Shown here: piece after piece, positions 28,694 to 48,036 of the stretch
How the letters are laid out: the number at the start of each line of letters is the position of its first letter
Position numbering within the stretch: the stretch's first letter is position 1
DNA from: Microcaldota archaeon
Lineage (GTDB): Archaea > Micrarchaeota > Micrarchaeia > Micrarchaeales > Micrarchaeaceae
Direction: 5' to 3'
DNA: 56,137 nt
Assembly (NCBI GenBank): GCA_021806095.1
Contig: JAJZYD010000002.1
Location: 1 to 56,137, forward strand
Program-made: the position numbers and the translations under genes
Notes under the pieces: model-generated
What the model was told of the DNA's origin: nothing
The model's database searches: none
What the model saw: only the letters and a program-made list of their open reading frames with translations

Positions 28694-30595
28694 ATGGCAG
28701 AAGAATATACAGCAAAAGATATTATGGTGCTAACTGGGGTTCAAGGTGTACGCAAAAGGCCAGCTATGTATATAGGTTCAACAGGCAGTGCGGGTTTTCT
28801 GCATTTGCTTTATGAAGTGCTCGACAATGCGATAGACGAATCGCTTGCAGGATATGCAAAAAATATAACAATAAAATTAAGCAAAGATGAAGATATTGAT
28901 GTTGCTGAAGTAAGCGATGATGGAAGGGGCATACCAGTTGATATTATACCAAAAGCAGGCAAACCCGCGTTGGAAGTTATAATGACTTCTCTTCATTCTG
29001 GTGCAAAGTTTGAAAATAAAGCATATAAAGTATCTGGAGGTCTTCATGGTGTTGGGCTTACTGTTGTTAATTCACTATCAGAATACACTGAGGTAAGAGT
29101 AAAAAGAAATGGTAAACTTTATATGCAGAAATTTAGTCGAGGTGTCCCATTAACAAGCCTTACAGAAATTGAATCAAATATTTCAGGTAGCGGTACAACT
29201 ATAAAATTTAAGCCTGACAAAGAAATATTTTTAGTTAAATCATTTGAAACAATACAACTTACAGAGAGATTGCAAGATCTTGCATTTCTTAATCCTGGAT
29301 TACATATAACACTTATTGATGAACGGGATGAATCACCAAAAGAGATTAAATATTATTCTGAGAAAGGGCTTGAAGATTTTCTTTCATACATCAAAGGAGA
29401 CAAAGAAAATATAAGTAAGCCTGTCTATATTACAAAAGATGTTGATAATTTTCATGTAGAAATAATTATTCAATATGTTAAATCCTATTCCGAAGAACTG
29501 CTTTCATTTGTAAATAAAATTAAAACGAGTGAAGGTGGTATGCACGTTGCGGGGTTTCATGCGGCATTGACTCGCGCTATTTTATCATATAATCAAAAAA
29601 ATATGAAAAAGCGAGATATTGTGCTTGAGGGGGAAGATACAAGAGAGGGGCTTACTGCAATTATTTCTGTTTTAATGCAGAATCCTGAATTTGAGGGGCA
29701 GACAAAGGAGAAACTTGGAAATGTTTCAGTAAAATCTGCAGTTGATAATGTAACATATGCAGGGCTTTCTAAATATTTTGAAGAAAATCCAAATGAAGCC
29801 ATAAAGATTTTGGATAAAGTATATAATGCAGCAGAAGCAAGGGAGTCCGCAAGGCGTGCACGAGAGCTCGCAAGAAAAAAAGGAATGTTTGATGCTGATA
29901 TTCTACCAGGTAAGCTTGCTGACTGTACAGAAAAAGATCCAGAAAAATCAGAGCTTTTTATTGTAGAAGGAGAAAGTGCAGCAGGTTCAAGCAAACAGGC
30001 CCGTGATAGATTTATACAAGCAATACTACCTTTGCGCGGTAAAATACTCAATGTTGAAAAAGCAACTGATGAAAAAATATTTAGCAATACTGAACTGCAT
30101 ACAATGGTAACTGCTTTAGGAACCGGAATAAAAGAGACATTTAGTGTTGATGGAATAAGATATAAAAAAATTATAATATTGACGGATGCCGATGTTGATG
30201 GAAGTCACATAAAAACTTTACTTCTTACATTCTTCTACAGATATATGCGCCCGCTTGTTGAGAGAGGCTATATTTATATAGGACAGCCCCCATTATATAA
30301 AATTTCACATGGCAAAGAAGTTAAATATGCGTACTCAGATTCAGAGCTTAATGAAGTGCTCAAGCAGTTCGATGGGAAGGCAAATGTACAACGATATAAA
30401 GGTCTTGGGGAGATGAATCCAGAACAGCTTTGGGAAACAACAATGAATCCCAAATGTAGAATACTCAAACAAATAACTATAGGGGATGCTGAGCTTGCCA
30501 ATATAATGTTCACAGTATTAATGGGATTGGATGTAGAGAAGCGGCGCCATTTCTTAGAAGAGCATAGCAGTGAAGTTAAATTCTTAGATATTTAG
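28694..30595 (+). CDS. gyrB: DNA gyrase subunit B
   Basis: [80 protein letters not shown]. Confidence 0.97.
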
Positions 30596-40889: not shown

Positions 40890-40938
40890 ATATTTTTGTA
40901 TAACTTATATTGATAATAATATTTATTAGGTGTTAAAA

Positions 40939-41271
40939 ATGACTGTAAAAGATATTGATCAATCTGTTTTTGATGATGAAGTATTGAAATCAAACATACC
41001 CGTTGTGATAGATTTATGGGCAGAATGGTGTGGTCCTTGTAGAATCTACTCCCCAATATTTGAAGAATTATCAAAAAATTATGAAGAAAAAATAAAATTT
41101 GTAAGATTAAATGTCGATGATAATCCTATAATTGCAGAAAAATACAATATAATGAGTATACCAACAACATTGCTTATTATAGATGGTAAAGTAAAAGCAA
41201 TGCAAGTAGGTGCAATGCCAAAGGATATGGTAAAGAAATGGATTGATAATAATATTAATAAAAAATATTAA
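40939..41271 (+). CDS. trx: thioredoxin
   Basis: [28 protein letters not shown] active site. Confidence 0.94.
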
Positions 41272-41360
41272 AACATAAAATAATCTATAATCTATATTCT
41301 AGATTCGTTACTTTTTAGTTTATCTTTATATTATTTATATAAATTTATTCAAGGATTACA

Positions 41361-42653
41361 ATGCAAGAGATTCCAACACCAAGGGGAATGAGGGACTTAA
41401 TGCCAAATGAAGCATTCTTTATGAATAAAATAATAAAAAAGATTGAATCTGTTTATTCAAAGTTTGGATTTCAAACGATAGATACACCACTCATTGAATC
41501 TTTGCAAATTATGAATGCTAAAAATGCCATTGGTGAAGATACAAAGCTTATATTTGAATTGAAACAAGAAGGATTTGCGCTTCGTTTTGATCAAACTATA
41601 TCACTTGCGCGCTATCTTGCTATGTATAAGGAACTTCCAATGCCATTTAAAAGATATGTGATAGGAAAAAGCTGGAGAAGAGATGAGCCACAAAAGTTAA
41701 GATATAGAGAATTTATTCAAGCAGATGTTGATATTGCAGGAAGCACTTCACTGGCTGCAGATGCGGAGGTTATAGCCGTTCAAGCTAAGGTAATAGAAGA
41801 ACTTAATTTAGATTACATTGTAAAAATAAATGATAGAAGATTTATATATGGATTTTTTTCATCAATAGGCATAAATGCGGAGCAGTCAATACATATAATG
41901 CGTGCAATAGATAAGTTAGACAAGATTGGAAAAGATGGTGTACTGAAAAGTATACAAAAAATAAATGGAATAGATAATGAAAAATTAAAGATTATAGATG
42001 AACTTATAAGTCAAGATAATACAAATGAAGATGTGCTTGCATTTATAAAGGCAAAAGAGTCCGAAAACAAATTAATTAAGGTTAGTGGAGAACTAATTGA
42101 ATTACTTGATATGCTTAAAAATTATAATCTGAAAGGAATTGTTAAATTAGATCTTTCTTTAATGAGAGGTATTGATTATTACAATAGTACTGTTGTTGAA
42201 TATTATGTAAACAATAAGAATATATTATCAGCAATAGGTGGTGGAGGAAGGTATGATAATTTAGTTGCAACTATTAGTAATAAAAAATCAGTGCCATTGG
42301 TTGGTACTAGTTTGGGAATCAGCAGAATTCTCGATATTTTAAATTTCTCGGATTCTCTAAAATTGAATGATGCAGAAATTTTTGTTGTTAATGTTAAGAA
42401 AAACAATTATATGTATGCTCTACAAATTGCAAATAAATTACGCTCGAATGGAATAGCAGTTGATATGAATATAATTGATAGAAATATATCAAATCAATTT
42501 TCATATGCTAATTCATTAAAATATAAATATATAGTTATTGTAGGAGATATTGAAGAAAAATTAAATAATTTAAAGGTAAGAAATCTCATCGATGGAACTG
42601 AGGAAACAATTACATTAAATGAAGCAATAGAAATGTTCCTTGGACATAAATAA
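41361..42653 (+). CDS. hisS: histidyl-tRNA synthetase
   Basis: PTPRGMRDLMPNEAFF, LRFDQTISLARYLA, GKSWRRDEPQKLRYREFIQADVDIAG, GRYDNLV. Confidence 0.95.
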   Translation: MQEIPTPRGMRDLMPNEAFFMNKIIKKIESVYSKFGFQTIDTPLIESLQIMNAKNAIGEDTKLIFELKQEGFALRFDQTISLARYLAMYKELPMPFKRYVIGKSWRRDEPQKLRYREFIQADVDIAGSTSLAADAEVIAVQAKVIEELNLDYIVKINDRRFIYGFFSSIGINAEQSIHIMRAIDKLDKIGKDGVLKSIQKINGIDNEKLKIIDELISQDNTNEDVLAFIKAKESENKLIKVSGELIELLDMLKNYNLKGIVKLDLSLMRGIDYYNSTVVEYYVNNKNILSAIGGGGRYDNLVATISNKKSVPLVGTSLGISRILDILNFSDSLKLNDAEIFVVNVKKNNYMYALQIANKLRSNGIAVDMNIIDRNISNQFSYANSLKYKYIVIVGDIEEKLNNLKVRNLIDGTEETITLNEAIEMFLGHK

Positions 42654-42691
42654 TTATAAATAAATTAAAAAAGTAAAAATAAGTTGAGTAT

Positions 42692-43231
42692 ATGGTAAAA
42701 TCAGATGTTGATAGAGTCACAGAAGAGAATATAGCAAAAGGCGGTGTTTTAGTAAGATTGTATTTTGATATTCAGGATAAAGAAGAAAATAAGTTACAGC
42801 CACTACTTGTAGATTTGATTAATAATGGACTTATGAAAGAAAAAGGGGTCGTTTACTGTTATGGTAGTATAGAAAAACCCCTTCTAATGAAAGATATTTA
42901 TATAACAAGCGGCACTGTTACTATGTTATTTGATAAGTTTATGCCTCTTATTGGAATTGTATTTAGATATGCACCTGCTGGAATAGAAATATTGAAGCCT
43001 GACAAAGAAATAAACTTTAAGATAAATGACCTTCAATCAATGCTTATGGACATATCGCAATTATCTCTTGATTATTCTAAATTTATACTTGAGAAAGTAC
43101 TTAAACCAGAAGAGATTGAAAATTTTAAAACTATTTTGGAAAATAGAGTTATGCTTGGAAAGCAACTACTTAAAGAGCAGAATATATTAGACAATATAAA
43201 TAAAGATTCAGATCCTAATAATAAAAAATAA
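42692..43231 (+). CDS. hypothetical protein downstream of hisS
   Basis: 179-aa coherent ORF; family not recognised. Confidence 0.7.
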   Translation: MVKSDVDRVTEENIAKGGVLVRLYFDIQDKEENKLQPLLVDLINNGLMKEKGVVYCYGSIEKPLLMKDIYITSGTVTMLFDKFMPLIGIVFRYAPAGIEILKPDKEINFKINDLQSMLMDISQLSLDYSKFILEKVLKPEEIENFKTILENRVMLGKQLLKEQNILDNINKDSDPNNKK

Positions 43232-43244
43232 TAAAAATATATTT

Positions 43245-44297
43245 TTAACAACCTTTTGAACTTGAACATATAAATGTTCCACAAGTGCCTATTCTGTTTT
43301 CTCTCATATATGCTGATTCTAATGAAATTGAATTTGTAGATAAAAAGGCGTTTTCCGTTGTTGATGATATTATATCATCTGATATTACATTCATAGTTAT
43401 TATCAATGCAATTCCATTTGAAATTGAGCTATGTGAATATGCTGTATAAACTGCATCGTACAACGAAGGTGTTGAATTAGTTATATTTAAAGTAAGTTTA
43501 TATGGAGTTATAGCAGTTATATTTTGATATGTATCTGTTCCATTAGGAAATATACCTTCTAAATTATAATATGTATTATTATATTTAGTTGCTGTACAGT
43601 TTGATTCATTTGCATACATTTTTGTATAATTGACCATTATTGGATAATAAGTGCTTACTTTAAGTAAGTTTTCTGCTTTATCAAAATTACTAGTTTGTGT
43701 GCTTGAACTGTTAGAAGTTGAAGTAATATTTTTATTAGTTGTAGTTTTATTGGTTGTTATACTTATAGGTTTAATAGCGGTAATTGGTGCTGTTCCAAAG
43801 TTCGGTACAGTATTATTAACAAAAAGGATTCGTTGTACAGTTGGGGTCTCTAACAGACTAGAAGGAATTGGTATAAGGTCTACAACAAAATGATTATTGC
43901 TCACATTAGAAAGTTTTATTCTTAATGTTGAATATTTACTGCTTAAGTTAACATCGGTAAAATTATTAAATGGTATTTGTATAAGCATTGTAGGATTGAC
44001 AAATATAGGAAGCTTGGTAATTGCTAAAACTGCCTGTGTTGTAATATTTGAATAAGATAATAATTTCAAAGAATATTCATTACCATTTAATGATATTATT
44101 GTTGGTGTTGTAGTAAGTGTTATAGGTGTTGATTGATTTATAGATATAATATTTACATAATTTATATATAACGATATTATAGAATAAGCTACAAAAATAA
44201 TTACTAAAAATATAATTATAATAATACCATATTTAAAATATTTCAAATTTTTATTTTTTATTGCATCTTTTTTTGTAGTAGTTTTTATGACTTCCAT
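43245..44297 (-). CDS. hypothetical membrane-anchored Ser/Thr/Asn-rich extracytoplasmic protein
   Basis: N-terminal TM YFKYGIIIIIFLVIIFVAYSII, extended T/N/S-rich region; likely start MEVIKTTTKK at 44297. Confidence 0.65.
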   Translation of the reverse strand: MEVIKTTTKKDAIKNKNLKYFKYGIIIIIFLVIIFVAYSIISLYINYVNIISINQSTPITLTTTPTIISLNGNEYSLKLLSYSNITTQAVLAITKLPIFVNPTMLIQIPFNNFTDVNLSSKYSTLRIKLSNVSNNHFVVDLIPIPSSLLETPTVQRILFVNNTVPNFGTAPITAIKPISITTNKTTTNKNITSTSNSSSTQTSNFDKAENLLKVSTYYPIMVNYTKMYANESNCTATKYNNTYYNLEGIFPNGTDTYQNITAITPYKLTLNITNSTPSLYDAVYTAYSHSSISNGIALIITMNVISDDIISSTTENAFLSTNSISLESAYMRENRIGTCGTFICSSSKGC

Positions 44298-44535
44298 AAT
44301 TGCACCTTTATTCTTATCAATTATTAAGAGCAAAATATTAAAAGATTACTATATTACTATATTATAATTATACAATCATATTCATTTTATTAATAATTGT
44401 ATTTATAAAAATTGTATTTATAAATTATGTTATATATAAATAATCTATTTATTTACACCTATTCACAAAATCGTATTCTGCATGCATGGCAAAGGATTAT
44501 ATTTTTTTGCAGTGATTTTATATCAGGTGACTTAT

Positions 44536-45756
44536 ATGACTGTAGAAGAACAATTTAAGGAAGATATTATTGGTATGTTGAATGACCGTCAACAAGTTTC
44601 TTTCAATGAAATTAGAGATATAGCATTTAGTAGAGGGATTGCAGAGAAGTCTTTTGTAGATACGCTTACTAATTTAGAAAAAGATAAGATTATTGCTTCA
44701 AGAAGAAATGGAGGAATTTTGACATATTATATGTTGCAGCAACAAGATCATCTCAAAAATATTATAATTGTAGAAGATGATAAAAATATTAACAAACTCA
44801 TGGCTCTTTCAATAGGAAAAGGGTACAATATAACACAAATATATGATGGTGGTGAAGCGGTAACTATGATAAGAAAGCAGAAACCGGATCTTGTTATTTT
44901 AGATTTAATGCTTCCAAATAAAGATGGTTTGGATATATGCCAGACTATAAAATCAGATCCAGAAATAAAAGACACTATTGTTATTCTTGTAAGTGCTATG
45001 GATCCAACAAATAATAGATTTAAAGGTATAAAATATGGCGCTGATTATTATATAAAAAAGCCATTTGATCCCAGTGAACTCAGAACACTTGTGACACTCT
45101 TTCTCGAGAAAAAAGGCAAAAGATTTGATCCTTTAATAGATTTACCTGATGAAGAGAGAATATCAAACGAAATTGAACGCTCAATAAAAGAAGGTAAAAC
45201 ATATACAATAGGTACATTGAAAATAGATGAATTAGGAAATTATGCATCAAGGATAGGTGAACATTACGCTATAATTATTTTAAGGTTGGTGTCTCAATTG
45301 CTTCAAGATGCAGTAAATCAACATTCACCAAATATTTTTGTTGGTTTTCTCAATGGAGATGAATTTGTAATAGCTGGTATAAAAGACAATGTTGAAAAGG
45401 TAATACACGAAGTGCAAAAAGAATTTAATGCAGTAATGCCTTTTCTACTTCAAGATGCTGGTTATAAAAAGCTTGATTTAAATATTGATTCATTATTTGA
45501 AACAGACGAAGTGCCAAAATTGTCACTTTCATTTACTGAATCAGAAAAAGAAAAGCTTGAAGAGCGACGAAATGAGGTTCTTAAGAGTAAAGGTATAACT
45601 ACAAATGATATAGGCTCATATACATATGATGAATTACAGCAGATTTTTGGTAAAGAAAACTTTGATATTATTATAACAAGAGATTTAGATGGAGTTAAGA
45701 TGAGGGTTGGTAAAAAGAACAACTATAAAGAAGAAAAAAATAATAAAGATGAATAA
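44536..45756 (+). CDS. response regulator: N-terminal winged-helix-like, REC, C-terminal degenerate GGDEF-like domain
   Basis: NIIIVEDDKNINKLMAL...DLVILDLMLPNKDGLD...VILVSA...YIKKPFDPSEL receiver; then DPLIDLPDEERI...KIDELGNYASRIGEHYA...FVGFLNGDEFVIAG; start ATG 44536 after CAGGTGA. Confidence 0.82.
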   Translation: MTVEEQFKEDIIGMLNDRQQVSFNEIRDIAFSRGIAEKSFVDTLTNLEKDKIIASRRNGGILTYYMLQQQDHLKNIIIVEDDKNINKLMALSIGKGYNITQIYDGGEAVTMIRKQKPDLVILDLMLPNKDGLDICQTIKSDPEIKDTIVILVSAMDPTNNRFKGIKYGADYYIKKPFDPSELRTLVTLFLEKKGKRFDPLIDLPDEERISNEIERSIKEGKTYTIGTLKIDELGNYASRIGEHYAIIILRLVSQLLQDAVNQHSPNIFVGFLNGDEFVIAGIKDNVEKVIHEVQKEFNAVMPFLLQDAGYKKLDLNIDSLFETDEVPKLSLSFTESEKEKLEERRNEVLKSKGITTNDIGSYTYDELQQIFGKENFDIIITRDLDGVKMRVGKKNNYKEEKNNKDE

Positions 45757-45772
45757 ATAAGAAGATACATAA

Positions 45773-46324
45773 ATGGTTTGTATGAAAAAATTAAAATCAC
45801 AATCTTCTATTGATTTTATAATTGCCTACAGTGTATCGCTTGCAATTATTATTGTTGTTCTTGCAGTTATATTTAAAATTAATATATTTGGAATAAATAT
45901 TGCACCAACAAGCTGTATTTCATCACCATCTTTTTCATGTGGTGGAATTCTATTCAATTCAAATGGCTTAATTACTTTTACACTTTCACAAGCTACAGGT
46001 GCTGCAATTAATATTACAGGTGTTGCATGCTCTAGCGCTATAAATTCAACAAGCTATGCACCAGAATATGGTAATATTTATGTGCTTAATTATAAACAAG
46101 CTCCACAATACTATCCAAATAATGAACTTGCAAATGCTATTGTATTATATAGTGATTCTTCCCAATCCTTTCAAGCATTCTGTTACGATGGCAGTAGTAT
46201 AGCAAAGATTAATATAGGAAATACATTTGCTGGATTTATATGGATTAATTATACAACATCTGCACTTCCTAAAAACTACTATATTATTGAAAAGGTTATG
46301 TCATTTTCAACAGATGCAGGCTAA
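45773..46324 (+). CDS. class III signal peptide pilin-like protein
   Basis: KSQSSIDFIIAYSVSLAIIIVVLAVIF; head with C-x(6)-C...ACSS...GNTFAGFIWINYTT like that of the giant proteins. Confidence 0.8.
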   Translation: MVCMKKLKSQSSIDFIIAYSVSLAIIIVVLAVIFKINIFGINIAPTSCISSPSFSCGGILFNSNGLITFTLSQATGAAINITGVACSSAINSTSYAPEYGNIYVLNYKQAPQYYPNNELANAIVLYSDSSQSFQAFCYDGSSIAKINIGNTFAGFIWINYTTSALPKNYYIIEKVMSFSTDAG

Positions 46325-46485: not shown

Positions 46486-47322
46486 ATGAAATTGAAATCA
46501 AATTTATTAAAATTTATTCCATTTATTTTCTTGTTTATCTTAATGATAAGCTTTAGCAATGCAACATATGTCAATATGGTTGAGCCATATAATGCAACAA
46601 TTTATAATAATGGTAATGTGATCTTAGGCAAGGTTGGTCCAGGTCAGGTATTCTATTTAGCAATATCTTCAAGTACAACAAATGTAAATGGTATAAAGGT
46701 AAATGAAGGCTGGAATAAATTATTAATTGTTAATGCACCTGTAGGCTGGTTTGTTGAGAATTCACCTCTATATATATCAATAATCTCTACAAAAATTGTT
46801 GTACCTGGGAATGTAAAGTATGGTTTATATAATTTTACATTTAGAGCCGTCAATATTGGAAATTATTCAAAAGTTGGTAACTTAACATTCAATGCTTCTG
46901 TTAATGTTACTCCAAATGTATTTAAACTTTCAGTATATCCAAAAAATGTAACTGCTGGTCCTGGCCAACCAACACCTATTTATGTGGTTATAAATAACAC
47001 AGGGGTTTCTGATAGCCCATTTATAATAAGTGCAAGCGGACTTCCAGCATGGAATTATACTGCGACAGTAATTGCACTTCATCATACTACAAAAATTTTT
47101 AAGTATCCAATATATGAAAATGAACCAGGTTTATATGATACTATAATTAATGTGACATCATCTGCTAGTCCGTTAATACATAAAAATGTGACTATCATAA
47201 TGAATGTACAGTCATCCATTATAAATAATTATAAAGCAATAGGTGAAGGTGCCATAACTTTTCCTATAATTTATGCTCCGGTATATGCTATTATGAATAT
47301 AATAGGTAAATTTTTTAACTAA
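46486..47322 (+). CDS. secreted protein with beta-sandwich-like repeats and C-terminal hydrophobic segment
   Basis: Signal peptide FIPFIFLFILMISFSNA; NVTAGPGQPTPIYVVINNTG NEW3-like; C-terminal ITFPIIYAPVYAIMNIIGKFF. Confidence 0.7.
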   Translation: MKLKSNLLKFIPFIFLFILMISFSNATYVNMVEPYNATIYNNGNVILGKVGPGQVFYLAISSSTTNVNGIKVNEGWNKLLIVNAPVGWFVENSPLYISIISTKIVVPGNVKYGLYNFTFRAVNIGNYSKVGNLTFNASVNVTPNVFKLSVYPKNVTAGPGQPTPIYVVINNTGVSDSPFIISASGLPAWNYTATVIALHHTTKIFKYPIYENEPGLYDTIINVTSSASPLIHKNVTIIMNVQSSIINNYKAIGEGAITFPIIYAPVYAIMNIIGKFFN

Positions 47323-47337
47323 TTTTAGGTGTAATAA

Positions 47338-48036
47338 ATGAAAGAGAAAAGTAAAACTAAAAAAGACAAAGATACCAGTTTAAGCAATGTGTGTTTTATA
47401 AAATTAAATTCATTAGAGGATCTTGGCAAAAATATGTTGTTTACAGACATCAGCAAAACACTTTTTTCCATTGCTGAAGATAAAAAGCTTAATCTCTTCA
47501 TTGCAGGGCCTAAATTGAAAGGTACACGGCTTATTTTCTATTATCAAACAGATTTGGTTAAAGCAAAATATCTTGCATATAAACCTGAAGATAACAATTC
47601 AAAAAAAATATTAAATATAAGCGATAAATTGTTAAAAGATCAAACTACAGTTACACAGATTCCAATAATAGAACTTAAAAAAATGCCTTATAAAGAGAAA
47701 AAAATTGAGAATGTTACATGTATAAATGTTATTGATTATGAACCAATGGTTAAGATGTTAATTGCAAGAGCAATGGATAATGAAAGTATGGGAAAAGTTT
47801 ATATGTTTAATGTTGGCAATACTTATTTCATAACTTCATTATCTTTGCTAGGAAGTGATGATAATAATGTTCTTTACTATGCAGAAGTTAAAAATCCAGA
47901 TTTGAGCAAAGGATTTTTCCAATATGATTATTCAGATGATACAATAAGTCAAACAAATACAATCGGCAGTACATCTTTACTTTATTTAAGTATAATATAT
48001 CTTAAAGAAGGGTTTCCTTTTTTCAAGCCCGAATAG
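47338..48036 (+). CDS. hypothetical cytoplasmic protein
   Basis: 232-aa ORF after TAGGTG; end overlaps tRNA-Asn. Confidence 0.7.
   Translation: MKEKSKTKKDKDTSLSNVCFIKLNSLEDLGKNMLFTDISKTLFSIAEDKKLNLFIAGPKLKGTRLIFYYQTDLVKAKYLAYKPEDNNSKKILNISDKLLKDQTTVTQIPIIELKKMPYKEKKIENVTCINVIDYEPMVKMLIARAMDNESMGKVYMFNVGNTYFITSLSLLGSDDNNVLYYAEVKNPDLSKGFFQYDYSDDTISQTNTIGSTSLLYLSIIYLKEGFPFFKPE

Follow-up and report, generated by a model that had tools for sequence, protein, structure and literature searches.

Archaea are usually said to lack response regulators with a GGDEF domain; the data presented here describe instead a conserved core regulator of this type. The sole earlier mention of such a fusion that we found in the literature is one sentence in Galperin 2018 (PMC5847659), whose available text notes a 'WspR-like' regulator, in which a receiver (REC) is joined to an inactivated GGDEF domain, in two Ca. 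Micrarchaeum acidiphilum genomes and leaves bacterial contamination open. In the same available text, one histidine kinase and one HTH regulator are counted in the sole complete Micrarchaeota genome of that time (PMC5847659). GGDEF matches in DPANN archaea have also been mentioned in passing (PMC8646023).

The window analysed here is the whole stretch of 56,137 nucleotides, which is contig C36 of a 782-kb Micrarchaeota genome (G000) that is 92% complete. Table 1 lists the features of its response regulator and of the neighbouring genes. The regulator start at 44536 is backed by the ortholog alignment, which begins at this codon, and a Shine-Dalgarno-like AGGTGAC lies ahead of it at 44525-44531; an alternative in-frame ATG for a longer reading frame is found at 44482. 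In the full-length AlphaFold model (pLDDT 82), the secondary-structure elements of the N-terminal end follow a winged-helix order, and those behind the receiver are arranged much as in a GGDEF domain. The best PDB matches of this model were WspR, DgcR and PleD, with a large rmsd over both domains, presumably because the domain orientation differs. In Pfam the N-terminal region weakly matched a number of winged-helix families (Penicillinase_R sub-threshold, E 0.05), and a PDB profile search gave mixed weak matches, while the model topology fits a winged helix (wHTH). Judging from this model, the N-terminal domain is probably DNA-binding. It had been overlooked in the first-pass annotation.

Table 1. 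Coordinates of the regulator, its domains and motifs, and the surrounding features in the window.
Feature	Position	Strand	Basis
Response regulator of 406 aa with predicted wHTH, REC, pseudo-GGDEF and a C-terminal extension	44536..45756	+	Pfam, AlphaFold, orthologs
Predicted N-terminal winged helix (wHTH)	44536..44748	+	AlphaFold order a-b-a-a-b-b; weak Pfam matches
Receiver domain, residues 76-186	44761..45093	+	Pfam PF00072, E 6e-25
Phospho-acceptor Asp123	44902..44904	+	Invariant in 68/68 orthologs
Degenerate GGDEF domain core, residues 197-300	45124..45435	+	Profile, alignment, fold search
DPLIDLP, residues 198-204, corresponding to the DxLTxLPNR signature	45127..45147	+	L200, D202, L203, P204 invariant
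NGDEF replacing GGDEF, residues 273-277	45352..45366	+	GG[DE]EF in 0/68 orthologs
Rest of GGDEF-like fold and lineage-specific extension, residues 301-393	45436..45714	+	I380, R382 invariant
Class III-type pilin-like protein, KSQSSIDF (Q+1, acidic +5), alternative start 45782	45773..46324	+	
Secreted or membrane-anchored protein, conserved third gene	46486..47322	+	Downstream in 38/79 loci
Conserved 232-aa protein, no predicted membrane segment, fourth gene	47338..48036	+	Downstream in 30/79 loci
Divergent gene, N-terminal TM segment and extracellular domain	43245..44333	-	Upstream in 55/79 loci
Imperfect inverted repeat AARGnATAwTATnCYTT, 17 nt, candidate promoter/operator	44491..44507	+	Centre about 37 nt before start codon

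Residue conservation was assessed in a set of 68 orthologs, no two of which share more than about 85% identity. E80, D81, D82, D123, S153 and K175 of the receiver are invariant in all of them, and the acidic pocket (D81/D82), the phospho-Asp D123, S153 and K175 are thus all present. By these intact residues the domain is a phosphorylatable receiver, and its earlier description as clear agrees with both the Pfam match and this invariance. A receiver search of the genome returned the regulator as its single match and no second receiver.

Orthologs of the regulator occur in 95 of 100 related Micrarchaeales genomes, and further ones were found in deep families and other orders of the same class. 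In a tree of 70 regulator sequences, the deep lineages and two Micrarchaeales clades formed clearly separate groups, with SH-aLRT support of 100 at the deep split and of 97 and 95 for the respective clades, which argues for vertical inheritance and against contamination. On this phylogeny the regulator is a vertically inherited core gene. A bacterial contaminant as its origin is ruled out by the distribution and the tree together. The complete genome of Micrarchaeum A_DKE carries an ortholog as well (L063), and this strain is a candidate organism for testing.

The segment after the receiver had been proposed to follow a GGDEF-like layout. With the Pfam GGDEF profile the window protein stayed sub-threshold (15.5 bits, cut-off 23.8, E 0.015), and 43 of the 68 orthologs matched (best E 3.3e-5), a few of them at or above the cut-off. 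Because the match recurs in so many orthologs, it is, on profile evidence, not a chance one. The structure of residues 193-393 alone was then predicted (pTM 0.80) and searched against the PDB. GGDEF-containing chains made up 49 of the top 50 fold matches, and the sole exception was Thg1, a related palm enzyme. The GGDEF chains were matched with probability 1.00 and a best E of 8.4e-5 at moderate TM-scores of about 0.4-0.55, which therefore point to a diverged GGDEF fold. A PDB sequence search with the C-terminal domain alone gave weak GGDEF matches (best E 0.017), and Micrarchaeal GGDEF proteins were matched with 58.6% probability when profiles were compared with profiles. According to the predicted structure, the C-terminal domain is a GGDEF-derived fold, in line with the proposed layout, so that the fold check suggested in the first-pass annotation came out in its favour; the named motifs also align as claimed, with D202, L203 and P204 of DPLIDLP invariant.

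To set the register against PleD, the regulator was aligned at profile level with stand-alone Micrarchaeal GGDEF proteins, and we take D327 of PleD to be the metal Asp and N335 and D344 to be guanine-binding. D327 corresponds to K229, which is Lys or Arg in 57/68 orthologs; N335 corresponds to A237 (Ala, Val or Thr among orthologs) and D344 to I246, a position held by hydrophobic residues. In the window protein NGDEF stands at the GGEEF position, with D275 and E276 kept. None of the 68 orthologs has GG[DE]EF, and in 60 of them the first Gly of the motif is Asn. The commonest forms are NSDEF or NGDDF, and deep-lineage orthologs carry GEGEF, GDGEF or GNGEF types. An RxxD I-site, expected five residues before the motif, is absent from the window protein, and any RxxD nearby was seen in 2/68 orthologs. 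As the metal Asp, the guanine-binding residues, GG[DE]EF and RxxD have all been lost, cyclase activity is very unlikely, and by its residues the domain is a catalytically dead pseudo-enzyme. The first-pass annotation had read the motif as NGDEF, the first metal Asp as replaced, the I-site as not apparent and an active cyclase as doubtful; these readings are supported. R250, S253, Q254, Q257 and D258 are invariant or nearly so and form a polar face on one predicted helix, and the C-terminal part is conserved at Y362, Y364, E366, I380 and R382. From these two conserved patches we infer an interface, and the conservation suggests that the dead GGDEF domain serves as a protein interface.

No histidine kinase was found in the window, as had been annotated; its HATPase reading frame at 28694-30595 is GyrB. 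This gyrase subunit B represents a bacterial-type topoisomerase in an archaeon. The regulator is nevertheless not an orphan: on another contig the genome encodes a histidine kinase of 750 residues (G000:C13, L119:4614-6866, minus strand), in which HATPase, HisKA and PAS score over cut-off and GAF is matched weakly. This is the one HisKA-HATPase kinase recognised in this genome, where no second one was found; a further HATPase protein of 550 residues on C18 is, judging by length, putatively topoisomerase VI B. Both genes could be placed in 57 genomes; in 47 of these no more than 6 kb separates kinase and regulator, and in 46 the two share a strand. At 10/11 loci from the deep families, the regulator likewise has a kinase of this family nearby, oriented divergently where the coordinates are clear. 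This gene linkage makes the GAF/PAS kinase the probable cognate partner of the regulator. Micrarchaeales probably have no two-component system other than this pair, while a second system may have been missed here because the genome is 92% complete.

In this genome, as in some other members of its genus, kinase and regulator stand apart. Genes for thioredoxin, HisRS and a 180-aa protein lie upstream of the regulator here (window 40930-43231) and downstream of the kinase in G005 (L121), a placement hinting at how the kinase-regulator pair split. Directly downstream of the kinase is a gene for a TM-anchored, probably extracellular protein (L119:3408-4490, minus strand), which resembles the divergent gene beside the regulator in layout and not in sequence. 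All 63 members of the divergent-gene family have the TM segment.

The regulator is followed, as previously noted, by a class III-type pilin gene after a gap of 16 nt. Such a pilin-like gene is directly 3' of the regulator in 46/79 loci, always co-directional and with gaps of -50 to +35 nt. A class III-type signal, consisting of a charged residue, Q+1, an acidic +5 and a hydrophobic helix, was present in 51/55 members of the pilin-like cluster, none of the Pfam pilin families being matched. The conserved spacing is good evidence, at the level of gene order, that regulator and pilin share a transcript, as the earlier suggestion of an operon implied; it bears on co-transcription and does not prove regulation. 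Mapped on the tree, the adjacency is found in 37/41 loci of one clade and in 0/20 of its sister clade, for which one gain with a few later losses is the simplest history. Pilin linkage is thus a family-specific specialisation, whereas the kinase linkage is older; the pilin is perhaps not the ancestral target, since the linkage is missing in the sister family.

Upstream of the regulator, the inverted repeat has a near-fixed position before the start codon in most of the 68 loci, with a palindromic correlation of 0.81. The copy in the AT-rich window is weak and degenerate. Of 1015 other genes at these loci, 14 scored as high with the weight matrix of the repeat, a contrast that overstates specificity because the matrix was trained on the same regions. 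When six genomes were searched for the repeat, few matches exceeded the control, and they did not define a regulon. The repeat may function as operator or promoter, or the two may overlap in it; it may also be simply the BRE/TATA promoter of the regulator itself.

Taken together, we propose that the GAF/PAS histidine kinase would phosphorylate Asp123 of the regulator, which would probably act as a transcription factor by binding DNA through its winged helix. The dead GGDEF-derived domain would mediate dimerisation or protein interaction. In family f1, the most likely target of the regulator would be the operon that it forms with the adjacent genes for the pilin-like and secreted proteins; the divergent membrane gene is perhaps a further target. 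To this scheme as a whole, that is, a DNA-binding regulator phosphorylated within a sole two-component pair, with a dead GGDEF interface and its own surface operon as the target, we assign a probability of about 0.6. Because the catalytic residues have been lost and a pilin gene is adjacent in one family, the regulator probably tunes the cell surface rather than makes cyclic di-GMP. The broader picture is more tentative, and we would favour it less than its opposite: one pair would provide environmental sensing across the order through a wHTH-REC transcription factor whose GGDEF domain has been repurposed from enzyme to interaction module, and this switch would directly control a pilus or surface operon for host contact in Micrarchaeaceae-like archaea.

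An alternative is that the regulator is an adaptor that does not bind DNA, with the winged helix as a protein interface and the pilin proximity reflecting shared transcription only. Most archaeal response regulators lack DNA-binding outputs according to the available text of PMC5847659, and the polar residues R250 to D258 on one helix do look interface-like. Yet the wHTH order in the model, the apparently single two-component system of the genome and the inverted repeat upstream of the regulator's own gene speak for DNA binding, and we consider a pure adaptor rather improbable.

In some bacterial proteins dead GGDEF domains sense GTP or act as receptors, and the domain described here might likewise bind c-di-GMP or another nucleotide and gate the regulator. 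In favour of this, other, apparently active GGDEF proteins are encoded by roughly a third of the 100 relatives. Of 16 such stand-alone proteins examined (L202-L217; for example L202:5029-5706 and L204:4805-5410), 14 have a GG[DE]E core and 13 the I-site too. Some of their genes (L203, L204) occupy shared positions beside archaeal genes, which makes contamination unlikely, and from their motifs they are possible archaeal diguanylate cyclases. Against a receptor role, the I-site and the substrate-site residues are gone from the regulator, and this genome keeps the regulator without a match to any other GGDEF protein; nucleotide gating is therefore a distinctly poor prospect. An active cyclase of the WspR/PleD kind, making c-di-GMP for pilus control, is hardly credible despite the structural matches and the retained D275 and E276, given Lys229 at the metal position, Ala237 and Ile246 at the guanine positions, Asn for the first Gly in most orthologs, and the finding of no EAL over cut-off and no PilZ among 60 relatives.

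Bacterial-type c-di-GMP pilus control needs a cyclase, a phosphodiesterase and a receptor, and this genome gave no match to another GGDEF, to EAL or to PilZ. The suggested echo of that control is not supported: besides these negative searches, the domain no longer has the residues that bind substrate and product, and the sister family lacks the pilin link while the kinase link is older. The regulator would be a case of an enzyme domain retained as a structural module after catalytic loss, and together with its probable kinase it offers a tractable handle on how episymbiotic archaea sense their surroundings.

The Ca. Micrarchaeum acidiphilum regulator (PMC5847659) shares the phylum and the domain fusion, and almost certainly belongs to the same family, an assignment made from its published description. 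The locus had first been put forward as a possibly undescribed module; that does not apply to the fusion, which was mentioned there, and does apply to the winged helix, the core distribution, the kinase pairing and the pilin operon, which the available text of that paper does not report. In LtrR-type archaeal regulators a winged helix precedes the receiver, as the model predicts for the regulator here, but LtrR has no GGDEF domain and, in the same available text (PMC5847659), is known only from haloarchaea and Methanosarcina. The adjacent gene resembles archaeal class III signal-peptide pilins in its [KR]xQxAx[DE][FY]-type signal and hydrophobic helix, and its subgroup is set apart by an acidic +5 that is usually Asp and by the lack of a match to any Pfam pilin family. 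Finally, WspR, PleD and DgcR, the top full-length fold matches, likewise place a GGDEF fold after a receiver, whereas the regulator described here lacks the active site and the I-site and has an additional predicted winged helix and a C-terminal extension.
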